A stretch of DNA of 64,000 bases from Candidatus Woesearchaeota archaeon (GTDB taxonomy: Archaea; Nanobdellota; Nanobdellia; Woesearchaeales; GW2011-AR9). Positions 12,929 through 25,524 of the stretch are shown one piece after another. The notes below the pieces were generated by a model. It searched no databases, had not been told where the DNA came from, and saw only the letters and a program-made list of their open reading frames with translations. Position numbers and translations under genes: made by a program. How positions within the stretch are numbered: the stretch's first letter is position 1; the number at the start of each line of letters is the position of its first letter. Where the stretch lies: assembly GCA_945861715.1 (NCBI GenBank), contig CAMAVK010000002.1, forward strand, positions 198,440-262,439, in the 5' to 3' direction.

Positions 12929-14551
12929 CTATTCTTTCTCTATAGGCATATTATCTGGCCAAATTGGTACTTCGTCAGGTAGCGCAGGTGGTGCATGACC
13001 TCTTGCATGGTCTCTGGGGTTAGACACAACGGAATCCGTTTGCAGATCGGATGGACTCGTATAATCACGATTAACTGATGCACTTACTATAGTTGGATTT
13101 TCAGAGGCTGCAGCTGTACTAGATCCCCATGTTGCACCAAATAGATGTCCGGTATATCTCTTCCCAGAAGTATCCACCGTAGTATTCCCCCGGCCCTCAT
13201 TCATAAGCCATTCTCCAACTTTATTTGTATCGCGAAGAAAATAACTCTGAAATAATGCCATACTAGTATCATTTACTACATTAATACGACGTAAACTAAG
13301 ATATTCATTACCCGTTGTTGAAATGAAGTTATATGTGGGATTCATGCTGCCTTGCGTCCAACAAAGCGAGTAATATTCTCCACAAATCCGAGTGTATGTC
13401 TCGTTTGATTCATGAAAAGGAAAGACAAATGAGGAGGGTGTTTTGGCTGTATGAGTTGTTATATTTTTCTTTGCATCCAAAAGTTGAGTACGAAAGGCGG
13501 ATTCATTGAGCATCGACATATGCAAATGACTCATCCCATGCGATTCAATACTCCAACCATCACTTGAAAGATCTTCAATCTGAGTCCAATTCATATACCT
13601 CGTGGAAGGACCACCACGCGTGGCATAATTTGATACTGTCGCAACTGACCCCACGAATCCATATTGATCCATAATGGGTTTAGCTATATTATAAACTGAG
13701 GAAAAGCCATCATCAAAAACAATAATAACTGCTTTTTTTGGCATTGTATAAGTACCCTTTCGCCAATTGGCATAATGTCGTAAACTCACAGTTCTAAATC
13801 CATTTTGAGAAAGATATGCCATCTGATTACGAAATTGATCAGGCGTTACAATAGTTAGTTCTTTGTTACTAGTATTAATTTGATGATATACCAAAACCGG
13901 AATAGATTGTCCAAGAGCAGTCCCATAATCGCTTTCATTATATAAACGAAGAATTTGTTCACTCGTGAGGGCTTTATTATACATCGTAAACTCATCAACT
14001 GCACTTTTTAAATAAATCCCAGATCCGTTGCCCACACGCAGAGGCGCATTGGAATTTCGCAGTGAAGAATACAGGGTGCTATCCGTATCACAATATTTGC
14101 CATTGTGAAAATAGCGAATCGTTGTGCCGTTGTATGTAATTGAAAGCATCGTCCATTCATTATTATCTCGCAAACCACACGCTCTCTCAACAGCAGAAGT
14201 ATAAGCACGAGTCAAATTGCCATCCTGAGATAGAACAATAGACAAACTATTGGTAGATGATGTTCGAATGAGATAAGACCGACTACCAGTTCGCGCAGTA
14301 TACTTACTAATAATACCACCATTATTTACATATTGATTTTGTCGCAGCCAAATATTCCAAGTAGCACTAGTGAATCCATCAAGTAAAGGTGCATCGTTAA
14401 CTCTTACTTCCGAACTTCCGTTGAGCATAATCGAGCTTGATGCGGAAACGGAAGGAGCAATTATTATTATTATTATTATTATTACCATGAGTAGTAAAAA
14501 AACCGATAGATGCAATACACCAGTCCGGGGAATAAAATGTTTGGTTGTCAT
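12929..14551 (-). CDS. Secreted LamG-like / polysaccharide deacetylase protein
   Basis: A 540-residue surface or secreted protein. Residues 14-37 form a signal anchor containing a run of isoleucines. About 55-205 is a concanavalin/LamG-type lectin domain (WNIWLRQNQY ... VDEFTMYNKALTSEQI). About 217-420 is a NodB-type deacetylase with metal-site Asp pair FDDG (280-281) and SHGMSHLH (337-344). Near 440 a second LamG domain begins (EWLMNEGRGNTTVDTSGK) but breaks off, so the C-terminus looks truncated. Composition differs from the host skew and the gene ends at a duplicated gene fragment, indicating acquisition. Start is the ATG at 14551; an in-frame ATG at 14599 is possible. Confidence 0.82.
   Translation of the reverse strand: MTTKHFIPRTGVLHLSVFLLLMVIIIIIIIIAPSVSASSSIMLNGSSEVRVNDAPLLDGFTSATWNIWLRQNQYVNNGGIISKYTARTGSRSYLIRTSSTNSLSIVLSQDGNLTRAYTSAVERACGLRDNNEWTMLSITYNGTTIRYFHNGKYCDTDSTLYSSLRNSNAPLRVGNGSGIYLKSAVDEFTMYNKALTSEQILRLYNESDYGTALGQSIPVLVYHQINTSNKELTIVTPDQFRNQMAYLSQNGFRTVSLRHYANWRKGTYTMPKKAVIIVFDDGFSSVYNIAKPIMDQYGFVGSVATVSNYATRGGPSTRYMNWTQIEDLSSDGWSIESHGMSHLHMSMLNESAFRTQLLDAKKNITTHTAKTPSSFVFPFHESNETYTRICGEYYSLCWTQGSMNPTYNFISTTGNEYLSLRRINVVNDTSMALFQSYFLRDTNKVGEWLMNEGRGNTTVDTSGKRYTGHLFGATWGSSTAAASENPTIVSASVNRDYTSPSDLQTDSVVSNPRDHARGHAPPALPDEVPIWPDNMPIEKE
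14460..14484. repeat. (ATT)8 microsatellite inside the deacetylase signal anchor
   Basis: Eight perfect ATT units on the + strand read as repeated AAT/ATA-phase codons on the minus strand and encode a run of eight isoleucines in the hydrophobic anchor. Unit gain or loss would keep the frame and change anchor length by one residue each. Confidence 0.9.
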
Positions 14552-16462: not shown

Positions 16463-17632
16463 TTAGGCGGATACTTGTGCGATAGTCTTTTTTGCCAATT
16501 TGTATTCAAATAATTCTGGGAATGATTCTTCAAGTCCGCGCATTTTTACTTGGTCACGTGCTTTTTTGAACCATTCTTTCAGGACAGATTTTGTTTTAAC
16601 TTTAGCTCGCAGTAGATCATCAGTGGTTATTTGTCTTCTATTCTTTGTGGTGATGCTTTCTTGTAAAACGCTATCTATAGCTTTTTCACAGAGTGATTTT
16701 AAGTCTGCTCCACTATATCCTTCGGTTATTTCAGCGAGGTAGTCATAGTTGATGTCTTTTGTTGGTTTATTTTTGAGATGGAGTTCAAGTATTGATTTTC
16801 TTGATTCTTGGTCTGGTGGGGGAATAAATAATGTGGATCCAAATCGTCCTTCACGACGTAATGCGGGGTCAATTGACCATGGTTCGTTGGTTGCTGCGAG
16901 TATTAAGAGTTGTTGATCTTTAGATTCTATTCCATCAATTTCAGTTAGAAGTTGGGCCACAAAGTTTTTTTCATGCGGCATGGAATTTGTTCTGTCTTGG
17001 CCCAATGATTCAAATTCGTCAAAGAAGATGATGGTTGGTTCTTCACGTGCTTTTGCGAAGAGTTCGTCGATGTTTTTTTCTGTCTCTCCAACATATTTGC
17101 TTTTAAGTGTTGAGGCTTTGATGTGTAGAAATTGTGCGTCGGCTTCGTTTGCAGTGGCTTTTGCAATGAGCGTTTTTCCACAACCTGGAGGCCCGTACAT
17201 GAGGATTCCTCCTCCTGCTTTTTTACCGTAGTAGGTGAATAAATCTGGATTTCGAAATGGTTCAATTATTTTGAAATTTATTTCATTCTTTAGTTCTTCT
17301 AATCCGCCAATGTCAGCAAAGGTGATGCCTTTCTTTTTTGAATAGTGTTGGGTTTTTGTTTGTGTTATGGTCGTTTGCTGCTGAACTTGTATTGCATGTT
17401 CATTAGATTGTGATTGAAATTTCGGTGAGGCCTGCTGAGGTTGTTGAAGGAGCATGGCTTTATCATATAGTTTATTAGCCATCATTTCTACTTGCTCTTG
17501 GTCTCCTTTTGTAACTGAATCCATCAGGGCTTGTGCTGCGAGAAGGTATTCTTTAGCTGCTTCTACTTTGTTGGTGTCTTCTAACTCCTTGGCTAGTTCA
17601 AGATGGAGCATTACTGTTTCTTTTCCGCACAT
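16463..17632 (-). CDS. Vps4/CdvC-like AAA ATPase with N-terminal MIT-like domain
   Basis: A 389-residue AAA ATPase. Residues 1-65 form a three-helix MIT-like domain (LHLELAKELEDTNKVEAAKEYLLAAQALMDS). A Q-rich linker leads to the ATPase: FADIGGLEELKNEI (about 105), Walker A GPPGCGKT (147-154), Walker B IIFFDEFE (201-208), sensor ILAATNEP, arginine-finger region RREGRFG, and a C-terminal helical end as in Vps4/katanin-like meiotic-clade enzymes. MIT plus meiotic-clade AAA is the CdvC/Vps4 layout, used to remodel ESCRT-III polymers. No ESCRT-III protein is recognisable nearby. Start chosen at MCGKE because the preceding gene's protein begins similarly (MCN); ATG at 17638 is possible. Confidence 0.82.
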   Translation of the reverse strand: MCGKETVMLHLELAKELEDTNKVEAAKEYLLAAQALMDSVTKGDQEQVEMMANKLYDKAMLLQQPQQASPKFQSQSNEHAIQVQQQTTITQTKTQHYSKKKGITFADIGGLEELKNEINFKIIEPFRNPDLFTYYGKKAGGGILMYGPPGCGKTLIAKATANEADAQFLHIKASTLKSKYVGETEKNIDELFAKAREEPTIIFFDEFESLGQDRTNSMPHEKNFVAQLLTEIDGIESKDQQLLILAATNEPWSIDPALRREGRFGSTLFIPPPDQESRKSILELHLKNKPTKDINYDYLAEITEGYSGADLKSLCEKAIDSVLQESITTKNRRQITTDDLLRAKVKTKSVLKEWFKKARDQVKMRGLEESFPELFEYKLAKKTIAQVSA

Positions 17633-17744
17633 GGTCATTTGATTTAGTTTTTTTTTATGGTAAATGTTTTTTGTTTGATGTTGGTTGCTTTTTTTGATTA
17701 TTTCATTTTTTTTGATAATCTGAGTGAAGTCTTTATATGGGCTG

Positions 17745-18065
17745 TTAATGGTGATGCGGTGTTGAATGACTGTGGGCCTTTTGATGATCCGTTTTTGCTT
17801 TGTTAACATGATCCAAGTCATGCAGGGTTGCGCGAGCAAGTTCTGGTATGGTAAGTTCTGGTTTTTGCGTTCCAATTATTTGGTGAGCTTTTTGGTAACA
17901 TTGATTAGCTTTTTGATGCAAGATAGTATTTTTTTCTTGTGCGGCAACGAGTGTGTAAATACTTGCGGCTTCTAGCATATGTTCGTGCGCTTTTTGGTCG
18001 TTGCCTTTTTCAAGATGAATTTTGGCTAATTTTTCGTGAGTATTTGCGTCGTGAGTATTACACAT
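17745..18065 (-). CDS. Stand-alone MIT/TPR-like helical protein
   Basis: A 106-residue protein whose first 65 residues (MCNTHDANTHEKLAKIHLEKG ... HMLEAASIYTLVAAQEKN) parallel the N-terminal MIT-like domain of the AAA ATPase encoded just downstream: same helix lengths, same LAK and AA(x)EYL-type positions. The C-terminal 40 residues are polar and His-rich. It overlaps the preceding gene by 8 bases and is followed 112 bases later by the ATPase gene, so the three are probably one operon. It may act as an adaptor or competitor for the same MIT-binding partner; that is inference. Confidence 0.6.
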   Translation of the reverse strand: MCNTHDANTHEKLAKIHLEKGNDQKAHEHMLEAASIYTLVAAQEKNTILHQKANQCYQKAHQIIGTQKPELTIPELARATLHDLDHVNKAKTDHQKAHSHSTPHHH

Positions 18066-18738
18066 AGAGTAGACCTCGCATTGGTTTTAGTTGGTTAACT
18101 GATTGTTGTTGATTTGTAGGTTTTTTATTTTCCATTTCGGCAACATTTTGATGGATTAATTGTTGTAATGATTCTTTTATTCTATCCCGAAGTGGTGTAG
18201 TTTGGTTTTGTGATGTGATTGGGCGTGGTATTTGCGCGTGATGGGTACTTTGTGTTGTGGCTCGTGGGTTGTATTCAATTTCACTGCGATATGAATAATT
18301 GCTATTTTGGTTTGTGTGAGTGGATTGTGTTGTGTGTGATGTTGCTTGTTTTTGGTTGGGTTTTGGAAGGTTTTGAAGGATGCTATCCAGTGATTTATTT
18401 GGCCCTGTAGGTTGATTTTCACTTTGCCCACCTTTTCCTGTTGTTTCTTGGGGATTTGGCATGTAGCCAAATGGAGATGTCCTGGTGGTGATGTATTCAC
18501 GAATGTAAATTCGTTGCACCTCGTATGCTTTAGAATCATCTTGAAATTGTTTGTAGGCTTGAACTTTACCGGACAGATCGCTTGAGGGTGATTGGTTCCG
18601 ATATCCGAATATTGGTGTTGTTGCTTGTGAGTATGATGTTTGGAATTGCGGTGCAGCGATTGGCATATCTCGATACGCGTTGATCGTTGCGAGGTATCCG
18701 ATTCCTGCTAATTGATTTTGATGGGGTGAGCAGACCAT
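18058..18738 (-). CDS. Low-complexity Q/N/T/P-rich protein in the MIT-ATPase cluster
   Basis: A 226-residue protein, largely disordered, rich in Gln, Asn, Thr, Ser, Pro and His, with an amphipathic helix near the end (RDRIKESLQQLIHQNVAEME). A short proline motif, ILQNLPKPNQK around residue 125, is of the kind that MIT domains bind in ESCRT-III tails (MIM2-like), but the match is only suggestive. The minus-strand Q/N/T/H bias partly follows from the strong strand skew of this region. It overlaps the downstream MIT-like gene by 8 bases. Function unknown. Confidence 0.55.
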   Translation of the reverse strand: MVCSPHQNQLAGIGYLATINAYRDMPIAAPQFQTSYSQATTPIFGYRNQSPSSDLSGKVQAYKQFQDDSKAYEVQRIYIREYITTRTSPFGYMPNPQETTGKGGQSENQPTGPNKSLDSILQNLPKPNQKQATSHTTQSTHTNQNSNYSYRSEIEYNPRATTQSTHHAQIPRPITSQNQTTPLRDRIKESLQQLIHQNVAEMENKKPTNQQQSVNQLKPMRGLLYV

Positions 18739-18918
18739 GTGACGTTTGCATAAACATATAGTCCCTTAAGAAAGTGAGACATATAAGTCTTATGGCTAAA
18801 GTGGGACATTTATAGCTAAATTTGAGATATGTAACTATCAGATATGATGAGGTAATATGAGAAAGAGTAGTAGAATGTTTTCTCTTGGTGTGTTTTGAGT
18901 TTAAATAGGGTTGATGTA

Positions 18919-19515
18919 TTAGAATCCTACTTTGGTAGTTGTTTTCACAGCTTGTTCTTGGAGTCGTTCTTGACGTATTTGTCCAATTTCTTTGCTTGTT
19001 TGTTGAAGTTCTTGATACACGGCATTGTATTGAGACTCAATTGTTTTGATGTTTATTTGAAGATTCCTTGCTTCTTCATTTATTCTATCCATTATTGCTT
19101 TTGTGTTTCTATCTGCTGAATATAATAAATGTGTTTCTTCTACGATCAACCTTTGAATTTCTTGGTTGGCACGGTATAACATGGGTGATATTTCTTTGTC
19201 AAGACGGTTAATGAGTTCAAATAAGGCGTATATCTTTTCTACATCAATTTCTGTAGTACGTTTTGTTTTTAAGAAACGTATTTTGTGTACTAATTCTTCT
19301 CGTTTTTTGTTGAGTTTATCGATTGATTCAACTAATTTTTCGGTATGCTGGAAATTGTGTTGTAAGTCAGATACTTCTTTTAATTGTCTGCGAATTTGAT
19401 CTTCATAATTGTTTAATTGGTATATTTCATTTTGGATTGTTTTTTCAATAGAATCTAGGGTGTGTTCCATTGGAAGAGATGATTCTGGTTCGATGCGAAA
19501 TCCTGCTTTGGCCAT
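18919..19515 (-). CDS. Coiled-coil protein upstream of the MIT-ATPase cluster
   Basis: A 198-residue protein, nearly all helical with heptad repeats between residues 20 and 185 and no membrane segment. It starts MAKAGFRIEPESSLPMEH. Size and helix content are like those of ESCRT-III or spectrin-like structural proteins, but I see no ESCRT-III sequence signature (basic N-terminus, acidic MIM tail). It is transcribed in the same direction as the downstream cluster, with a 180-base gap containing an AT-rich, TATA-like stretch. A structural or filament partner for the ATPase is a hypothesis only. Confidence 0.55.
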   Translation of the reverse strand: MAKAGFRIEPESSLPMEHTLDSIEKTIQNEIYQLNNYEDQIRRQLKEVSDLQHNFQHTEKLVESIDKLNKKREELVHKIRFLKTKRTTEIDVEKIYALFELINRLDKEISPMLYRANQEIQRLIVEETHLLYSADRNTKAIMDRINEEARNLQINIKTIESQYNAVYQELQQTSKEIGQIRQERLQEQAVKTTTKVGF

Positions 19516-23947: not shown

Positions 23948-24856
23948 CTACACTTGTTTTTTTGGTGGTGGAGCTAGAGAAAATGATTTGTTTGACGCCC
24001 TATCTTTGATCGATGCTGGAATTCCGTCCGGCTGTGACGGGGGTGGTGGAGTACTTAGAAGGATGGTATGTTTTATTTCTGATTTTTGAGGTGGTGGAAG
24101 ATGAGTAAGCGATGGTGATGGAATATTTTGAGGAGGAGATAGATTTGTTTGCCTTTCTAGAGGATGTCGGGGTGGAATAGTTTGGTTTTCTTCACTTTGG
24201 ACGTTTGTTGATGTGGTGTTTAGTATGGGGTTGTTCCAATGAGGTCTGATATGTAATCCCAATTTTATTTCTAGTAAGTGGATTTTTTCTTCTATAATTT
24301 GAATGGATGTTTGATCTAGGATTGTTTTTTTAGACTCTAGTTGTGTTTTTAGTCTGTCTACTTGCTGTTGAAGTACAGTTGAACGGGTGTGATCTTTGTC
24401 TTTGTTGTGTTGATTTGATGAGGTGTGTTGTGTTGATTGTTGGTGGATTTGTTTGGAAGAACGTATATGGTGGATGTCCTGTGCTACTCTTTTTTTAATG
24501 ATATGTTCGGCTAATATACTGCTTAATCGTTCTACTTTTTTATGGATTGCTTTGTCTTTTCCAATTTCAAGTTGATGCTCTAATTGGGCAATCCGTTTTT
24601 TTAGAAGGGATTCTTTTTGAGATTGTTTTTTGCGTTCGTCACCGAGATTTTTTTGTAGGTCGAATACTCCTTCTAGTTTGTTCTCAAGTGATTGAATTTC
24701 GTGTTTTATGGATTGTTTGGATGCTTTTTTATGATCTGCAAGATATTTAATTTCATTGATTTTATTTGTGATTTCTACTTTGGATAGAGCATTTGATTTA
24801 CTTTCATAGAGTTGGGCTGAACGTACAAGGAGACGTTTTGCAAACTCGGTATTCAT
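23948..24856 (-). CDS. Coiled-coil protein with proline-rich tail
   Basis: A 302-residue protein. Residues 1-190 are a long charged coiled coil (for example DERKKQSQKESLLKKRIAQ); residues 210-302 are disordered and rich in Pro, Ser and Thr (PPSQPDGIPAS, APPPKKQV). There is no signal peptide. Its start codon overlaps the stop of the preceding 24853-25428 gene by the ATGA type, so the two are translationally coupled. Both proteins combine a coiled coil and a proline-rich end. Function unknown; DPANN-restricted by my impression. Confidence 0.6.
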   Translation of the reverse strand: MNTEFAKRLLVRSAQLYESKSNALSKVEITNKINEIKYLADHKKASKQSIKHEIQSLENKLEGVFDLQKNLGDERKKQSQKESLLKKRIAQLEHQLEIGKDKAIHKKVERLSSILAEHIIKKRVAQDIHHIRSSKQIHQQSTQHTSSNQHNKDKDHTRSTVLQQQVDRLKTQLESKKTILDQTSIQIIEEKIHLLEIKLGLHIRPHWNNPILNTTSTNVQSEENQTIPPRHPLERQTNLSPPQNIPSPSLTHLPPPQKSEIKHTILLSTPPPPSQPDGIPASIKDRASNKSFSLAPPPKKQV

Positions 24857-25428
24857 TTGAATAGGCCACGTCGTTTGGGTCCACTCGTCATTCCTGGCGG
24901 TGGTGGCGGAAAATCATCTTCGTCCTGTCCTGATGCTGATGGGGTGAGGGGTGGTAATTCTGCAAAGTTAGGTTGTGGGGCCATGCGAGAGGGACCGCCC
25001 ATAGGTGGCATACCCATGTTTATTTGTGGGGATGGTGATTGGGATGTATAATTTTGCGGTTGGAAATTTCCTTGGGTTGGCATTTGCATAGGTGATCTAT
25101 TTTGTTTGCTTACAAAGTCATCTACTTTGTCGGCAATAGCCACCATACCTTTTGCGATGGTTTCGTTTTGTTGCATTAAGATGTCAATTTTGGATGATGA
25201 GTCATCAAGTTTCTTACTATGAGTGTTATCATCGCCCTTAACTTCAGCTAATGCTTGTTGGAAGATTGAATGCAAGTCATGCATGGATTCTTTCATGCTT
25301 TCAAGTTCGAGGATTAATTCGTTGATTTTAGCGTCTGGAGCTGAAAGTCGCTTTTTTAGCGCTTCTACTTCGTATTTTAAATCTTGAATTACTTGTTGAG
25401 GAAGAAGTTCGTAGTCATCACTCGTCAT
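24853..25428 (-). CDS. Coiled-coil protein with Pro/Met/Gly-rich tail
   Basis: A 191-residue protein starting MTSDDYELLPQQVIQDLKYE. Residues 1-100 form a coiled coil (LKYEVEALKKRLSAPDAKINELILELESM). Residues 115-180 are low-complexity with MGMPPMGGPSRMAPQP and a polyproline PPPPPG, ending in a basic KRRGLFK. The ATG at 25428 is chosen because GGTGA lies 5 bases upstream; the GTG at 25437 is part of that site. This N-terminus is one I associate with conserved Woesearchaeota/Pacearchaeota hypotheticals. It is coupled by overlap to the downstream coiled-coil gene. Confidence 0.65.
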   Translation of the reverse strand: MTSDDYELLPQQVIQDLKYEVEALKKRLSAPDAKINELILELESMKESMHDLHSIFQQALAEVKGDDNTHSKKLDDSSSKIDILMQQNETIAKGMVAIADKVDDFVSKQNRSPMQMPTQGNFQPQNYTSQSPSPQINMGMPPMGGPSRMAPQPNFAELPPLTPSASGQDEDDFPPPPPGMTSGPKRRGLFK

Positions 25429-25524
25429 ACATATCACCTGTTTTTATGGTTGGTCGGTATTTTGCGTATATAAATGTTTTGCGGGGGTTGGTTTTATGTT
25501 TTTTGACTTGTGGACTGAGGCTCA

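Follow-up and report, generated by a model that had tools for sequence, protein, structure and literature searches.

In the ESCRT system (endosomal sorting complexes required for transport), the recognition of ESCRT-III by MIT domains provides a precedent for an AAA N-domain that reads client tails (PMC9477494), and the MIT adaptor Vta1 stimulates the ATPase, Vps4 (PMC5141497). A 2024 survey of archaeal ESCRT systems leaves the DPANN archaea unmentioned in its main text (PMC10936438). For the most part, DPANN archaea are symbionts that have not been cultured, and few machines for work on the cell surface or on vesicles have been recognised in them. Here we describe a gene cluster from one such archaeon, Candidatus Woesearchaeota archaeon (assembly GCA_945861715.1, about 1.3 Mb in 8 contigs), located in a 64,000-nucleotide stretch of contig CAMAVK010000002.1 that we call the window. 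The cluster encodes an AAA+ ATPase whose N-domain is small and helical, a stand-alone protein related to that N-domain (the solo protein) and a low-complexity, probably intrinsically disordered protein (IDP). We propose that it is an AAA+ protein-remodelling module in which the N-domain docks the tail helix of the IDP, its dedicated client, a reading whose chances we judge to be evenly balanced.

Four open reading frames (ORFs) occupy positions 16463-19515, all on the minus strand, in agreement with the first-pass annotation of this DNA: a coiled-coil gene, a low-complexity gene, a gene for a 106-aa helical protein and an AAA ATPase gene (Table 1). Three of the four form a real conserved operon, of which the coiled-coil gene is not a member. 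The IDP gene is found directly upstream of the ATPase gene in all 26 loci with enough sequence, drawn from relatives throughout the class, in the order IDP-solo-ATPase in 13 genomes (the window counted) and IDP-ATPase in 13 more, and it often overlaps the next gene. In one additional genome (G051), the cluster genes are split over contig ends. An adjacency that recurs in 26/26 loci is more than chance. Thus, the clustering in relatives on which the first-pass annotation had staked its proposal was borne out for the IDP, solo and ATPase genes but not for the coiled-coil gene.

Gene starts throughout were placed by alignment. The IDP and solo genes share 8 nt (18058-18065), an overlap consistent with translational coupling. 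A second overlap in the first-pass annotation, between the ATPase and solo genes, depended on starting the ATPase at TTG 17875 to give a 470-aa ORF. We rejected this start because the relatives begin at the MCGKE-type methionine, here at 17632. With that start the ATPase/solo overlap is not real.

Our genome census is a sample. A set of 60 relatives yielded the ATPase subfamily (55-69% identity, clearly separated from Cdc48 matches at roughly 38-47%) in 9 genomes besides that of the window, and the solo protein in 9 of the same 60, nearly the same genomes. In a phylum-wide sample, 18 of 371 genomes carry the ATPase, drawn from the order and from other families of the class; within the order, the solo profile matches 18 of 353 genomes, in some cases solely because it recognises the N-domain of the ATPase itself. 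When all genomes were scanned for a DNA pattern of the Walker A region, most of the matches listed belonged to the bacterial TPR-AAA family discussed below, and they included at least two named cluster members, JAHFSD010000046.1 ("archaeon isolate nzgw59") and JAGVZM010000015.1 ("Candidatus Woesearchaeota archaeon isolate RIFCSPHIGHO2_02_FULL_29_10"). As far as we searched, the module is confined to the window's DPANN class.

By its motifs, the ATPase is catalytically intact and has the features of a classical AAA+ unfoldase. It matches the Pfam families AAA (6.8e-40) and AAA_lid_3 (1.7e-11). An alignment of nine members shows Walker A (GPPGCGK[ST]), Walker B (FFDE), the sensor 1 asparagine and the arginine fingers unchanged throughout, and both Walker B and an aromatic pore loop of the SK[YF]VG type are present in 26/26. 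In the window protein, the Walker B residues D205 and E206, the pore-loop aromatic Y180 and the arginines at 260 and 263 are all intact. The AlphaFold2 (AF2) model, built from an alignment of 26 rows of which two only cover the N-domain, has a mean predicted local distance difference test score (pLDDT) of 86, falling below 50 in the linker. Its AAA module finds its best matches in p97/Cdc48 with both Foldseek and phmmer. However, unlike Cdc48, p97 and VAT, the family has one AAA module instead of two and no double-psi barrel N-domain. True Cdc48 genes are separate in the relatives, and in the window genome Cdc48 corresponds to a two-AAA frame of 836 aa.

A single AAA module preceded by a helical region is also the architecture of IetA, the ATPase of the IetAS anti-phage system. 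The PADLOC IetA profile matches residues 32-380 (1.4e-44), but CDC48, PAN, FtsH and CdvC profiles all outscore it on the ATPase, and the match is generic to AAA. The NCBIfam IteA/IetA model reaches 143 bits against a cut-off of 510, and no IetS-type protease was recognised beside any locus read. We therefore rejected membership in IetAS and regard an anti-phage role of this kind as very improbable.

The N-domain of the ATPase is modelled as three helices (residues 3-17, 22-38 and 45-63; pLDDT 90-97 up to residue 60). The solo protein is modelled from an alignment of four rows with helices at 2-19, 23-44, 47-63 and 73-98 (pLDDT approximately 94-97 over residues 11-80). In several relatives, the solo profile detects the ATPase's own N-domain at E values of about 1e-6 to 1e-7. 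Judged by these profile matches, the two are homologous and the solo protein is a duplicate of the N-domain, as its likeness to the first 65 residues of the ATPase had suggested to the first-pass annotation. In one relative (G293, locus L077, 7623-9077), the solo protein and the ATPase are naturally fused into a 484-aa protein, which argues for physical association. The solo gene is confined to one derived clade and was gained once in the family tree (99/94), so the two-gene module is the older form and the window carries a derived form with three genes.

The fold class of this domain is predicted less sharply. The first-pass annotation had called it MIT. The AF2 models, built from thin alignments, predict three helices with high confidence, and the helix lengths of the solo model (18/22/17 residues) are nearer to MIT than to the 14-residue TPR helix, with helix 2 as long as in MIT. 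Pfam MIT (PF04212) has no match in the window genome. Sequence favours TPR somewhat: TPR_2 is matched weakly by 12 of 31 N-domains and MIT, also weakly, by 2. Profile-profile comparisons are weak for both. In a profile search, the sole natural PDB chain under E=0.01 was a weak match to 2mpk, the N-terminal domain of chitin synthase 1, which we take to be an MIT domain. With the solo model as query, Foldseek returned nothing under E=0.1, and the N-domain had no significant fold match. We place the predicted N-domain in a joint MIT/TPR class, as neither sequence nor fold searches tell the two apart.

Only the two ends of the IDP are conserved; the middle is rich in Q, S, N, P and Y and can hardly be aligned. 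At the N-terminus, M1, V2, C3 and H6 are invariant in nine aligned sequences, and nearly all of the 26 family members start with M[VSAT]C. The exceptions to Cys3 are two proteins (G486 and G438) with cysteines at residue 2 and 5 and uncertain starts. As a control, we took the 212 ORFs in the same loci that are 120 aa or longer and are not cluster genes; none has a cysteine at position 2 or 3. The window protein has a single cysteine, at residue 3. In the tail, L191, L194 and I195 are invariant in the alignment of nine, and 21 of the 27 sequences scanned have their most amphipathic window among the final 65 residues. Conservation restricted to Cys3 and an LxxLIxxEL tail is what a disordered client that docks would show. 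The first-pass annotation had also recognised a disordered protein here, and a low-complexity, probably disordered partner is conserved across the family. Its LPKP motif, proposed as an MIT-binding peptide, fared differently: among aligned homologs it is present in the window protein only, and we rejected it as an MIT peptide.

Taken together, a pore ATPase, its N-domain, the free-standing duplicate of this domain and a linked IDP with a tail helix suggest adaptor-assisted remodelling of a client. In the mechanism we favour, the ATPase would assemble as a hexamer and thread substrates through its pore by means of the aromatic pore loop. The N-domain would dock the C-terminal amphipathic helix of the IDP, and that helix would deliver the IDP, as dedicated client, to the ATPase. 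In the derived clade, the solo protein may serve as an adaptor that also docks the IDP tail, comparable to Vta1/LIP5 for Vps4. The variable middle of the IDP would be free to assemble or change, and the N-terminal cysteine may anchor the protein to a partner thiol, a lipid or a metal. The energy of ATP hydrolysis would then be used to extract or disassemble the IDP. Because Vps4 with Vta1 handles ESCRT-III in a similar manner (PMC5141497, PMC9477494), the module may work like that machinery in outline without being a member of it.

Several observations weigh against this proposal. Several relatives have no solo protein. Disorder of the IDP was judged on composition only, and the charge-hydropathy rule, which calls the window protein disordered, does the same for only about half of its homologs. 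The IDP could be a regulator instead of a client. Finally, a pure disassembly role leaves unexplained why radical SAM genes (in five genomes) or permease genes (in three) are coupled to the ATPase gene, a point to which we return below.

The likeness to ESCRT machinery deserves closer comparison. With Vps4/CdvC, ESCRT-III and Vta1/LIP5 the cluster shares a single AAA module, a small three-helix N-domain and a stand-alone adaptor of the N-domain type; like ESCRT-III, the partner, here the IDP, has a C-terminal amphipathic helix with a MIM1-like pattern. The first-pass annotation read this layout as ESCRT-type with a Vps4/CdvC-like ATPase. If so, the cluster would be a genuine ESCRT system that has diverged strongly, with a Vps4 homolog and an unrecognised ESCRT-III (the coiled-coil or the disordered protein) remodelling membranes. 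The gene layout, the MIT-like helix lengths and the weak match to 2mpk are consistent with this, as is an NxPWxxDxALRR motif in the ATPase that resembles Vps4. However, the family is not sister to Vps4 in the AAA-domain tree, and the approximately unbiased (AU) test rejects a grouping of the family with the eukaryotic Vps4 clade (p=0.004), where the Vps4 references are mouse VPS4B and yeast Vps4 only, taken from PDB alignments, and archaeal CdvC sequences are left out. The NCBIfam CdvC equivalog scores 191 bits on the ATPase against a cut-off of 650, lower than the 220 bits of the CDC48 profile. Vps4_C (PF09336) was not found in the window genome, while the controls S. acidocaldarius and M. 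jannaschii were positive. Consistent with this, the modelled AAA module lacks the extra strands expected of the Vps4 beta domain and has no strands after residue 270. Another difference from Vps4/CdvC is the conserved N-terminal cysteine. From the tree, the AU test, the profiles and the missing Vps4_C, we rejected membership of the ATPase in Vps4/CdvC.

None of the 20 cluster genomes matches the ESCRT-III model Snf7 (PF03357), a model of modest archaeal sensitivity, as 1 of 14 controls (S. acidocaldarius) matched and did so below the cut-off. This agrees with the earlier remark that no canonical ESCRT-III is evident. The coiled-coil protein, put forward as a possible counterpart, has no Snf7 match either. 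Its family is patchy, occurring in 12 of the 353 genomes of the order (loci L237-L243 and the window among them), and an order-wide search of these genomes found it in no other cluster genome. As it is neither linked to nor co-occurring with the cluster beyond the window, we rejected it both as a cluster member and as an ESCRT-III counterpart. What survives of the ESCRT-type layout is a fair analogy with Vps4-like working; Vps4/CdvC membership, the coiled-coil protein as ESCRT-III and the LPKP peptide do not. Overall, the cluster looks like ESCRT machinery, and by tree and profile evidence its ATPase is of descent separate from eukaryotic Vps4. We consider a genuine, highly diverged ESCRT system improbable. 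The case is a caution against labelling every archaeal AAA protein with a helical N-domain an ESCRT ATPase.

By its AAA domain, the ATPase instead groups with the TPR-AAA family, which carries the signature GGGhhhYGPPGCGK. In the AAA-domain tree, the family (100/100) has the TPR-AAA ATPases of bacteria and archaea as its neighbours, with support of 98/97, or 100/98 once two doubtful rows are left out. The sister ATPases, exemplified by loci from Chitinophaga (L117), Neobacillus (L099) and Burarchaeum (L115), have a TPR protein as a neighbour. As in our cluster, a separate helical-repeat protein is encoded next door in many of the bacterial loci. In contrast to our cluster, these systems have canonical TPR arrays and a long TPR partner, and no IDP with an N-terminal cysteine was noticed in their loci. 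A canonical N-terminal TPR array was not found in the window ATPase, which has one three-helix unit only and a TPR_2 match below the cut-off. The pairing of a TPR-AAA ATPase (GGGhhhYGPPGCGKT) with an immediately adjacent stand-alone TPR protein is widespread in its own right, occurring in Bacteroidota, Planctomycetota, Verrucomicrobiota, Bacillota and others (L086-L165). The nearest kin of the module is thus a very common bacterial gene pair that, as far as we found, is undescribed: our literature search on the TPR-AAA/TPR gene pair and on DPANN ESCRT turned up nothing specific.

This ancestry allows a broader and more tentative reading, to which we give somewhat less than an even chance. The cluster may represent an undescribed DPANN AAA+ system that arose from TPR-AAA ATPases, not from Vps4, and converged on the ESCRT plan: an ATPase with an N-domain, an adaptor made of that N-domain and a fast-evolving IDP client with a docking helix and a cysteine anchor, possibly modified by radical SAM enzymes in some lineages. 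An ATPase-client pair with such sharp handles (Cys3, KxxLxxLIxxEL and a single three-helix domain) would allow convergence on the Vps4 plan to be put to the test.

The genes coupled to the ATPase in some relatives point to two further explanations. In five genomes from four lineages (G055, G075, G362, G233 and G232), a radical SAM/SPASM gene of the peptide-maturase/heme-maturase type follows immediately downstream and overlaps the ATPase stop codon. The encoded proteins share approximately 30-43% identity with one another and are mutual best matches of their genomes. The short, cysteine-bearing protein might then be a substrate of a pathway resembling those of ribosomally synthesised and post-translationally modified peptides, altered by the radical SAM/SPASM enzyme and unfolded or released by the ATPase. 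Yet the linked gene is missing in 21 of 26 members, among them the window, whose genome yields no homolog at E<=1e-8. The IDP is also long for such a peptide (about 120-230 aa), shows no leader/core split and is accompanied by neither a protease nor an exporter. We think this explanation has a small chance of being right.

The main rival to a remodelling module is metal or cofactor handling, in which the cysteine, nearby histidines or cysteines and His-rich tails would form the binding site for a metal or cluster that the ATPase, as a maturase-type AAA protein, would load or release, with a permease or radical SAM enzyme as occasional partner. Cysteine at position 2-3 is a feature not just of the IDPs: solo proteins start with M-C, as do 16 of 26 ATPases (G089 counted from an internal methionine). 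Many solo proteins and some IDPs have His-rich tails, and several IDP N-termini contain additional cysteines (MACHLDGGICPH, MSCGNECH). Moreover, besides the five radical SAM genes, three genomes have a membrane protein gene that shares a few bases with the ATPase gene at its stop, NicO-like in G190 and G191 and DsbD_2-like in G019. Set against this, the NicO scores fall below the curated cut-off, most IDPs have one cysteine only, and the module comes without a gene for an enzyme client. In the window genome, neither a radical SAM gene nor a permease gene lies beside the cluster. We regard metal handling as unlikely, and continue to favour client remodelling by the ATPase.

Table 1. Coordinates of the cluster features in the window and of ATPase-coupled genes in relatives.
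Feature	Position	Strand	Basis or remark
Gene 1, low-complexity, probably disordered protein (IDP), 226 aa, start MVCSPHQ	18058..18738	-	ORF, homologs in 26/26 loci, alignment, composition
IDP N-terminal motif MVCSPHQ, Cys3 fixed in family	18718..18738	-	alignment of 9; 26-member comparison
IDP C-terminal amphipathic helix DRIKESLQQLIHQNVAEMEN, candidate docking helix, family pattern KxxLxxLIxxEL	18127..18186	-	alignment, amphipathic-window scan
Gene 2, solo protein, 106 aa, start MC; predicted three-helix (MIT/TPR-class) domain, fourth helix, His-rich tail	17745..18065	-	alignment, AF2
Gene 3, AAA+ ATPase, 389 aa, start MCGKE; helical N-domain and one classical AAA module	16463..17632	-	Pfam, alignment, AF2
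ATPase N-domain, residues 1-65, three predicted helices, homologous to gene 2	17438..17632	-	AF2, alignment
ATPase Walker A GPPGCGKT, residues 147-154	17171..17194	-	alignment, motif table over 26 members
Coiled-coil gene, neighbour, judged outside the module	18919..19515	-	order-wide search
Radical SAM/SPASM genes	L052 8820-9815; L226 5131-6243; L231 3193-4176; L233 5417-6316; L234 5533-6444		five relatives without solo protein
NicO- or DsbD-like membrane protein genes	L048 4483-5103; L082 5144-5671; L083 5433-5960		few-base overlap with ATPase stop

The cluster is flanked on both sides by intron-bearing tRNA genes (19720-19595 and 16403-16279), both of which Rfam finds and ARAGORN misses. 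Further upstream, the window contains an overlapping pair of coiled-coil genes (23948-25437) that recurs approximately 1.3 kb upstream of the cluster in the nzgw59 genome (L044, 3949-5315). On the other side, a deacetylase-like gene (14599-12929) contains a possible slippage site, a run of ATT/AAT repeats (about 14440-14480) that encodes poly-isoleucine within the membrane segment predicted at the N-terminus of its product.

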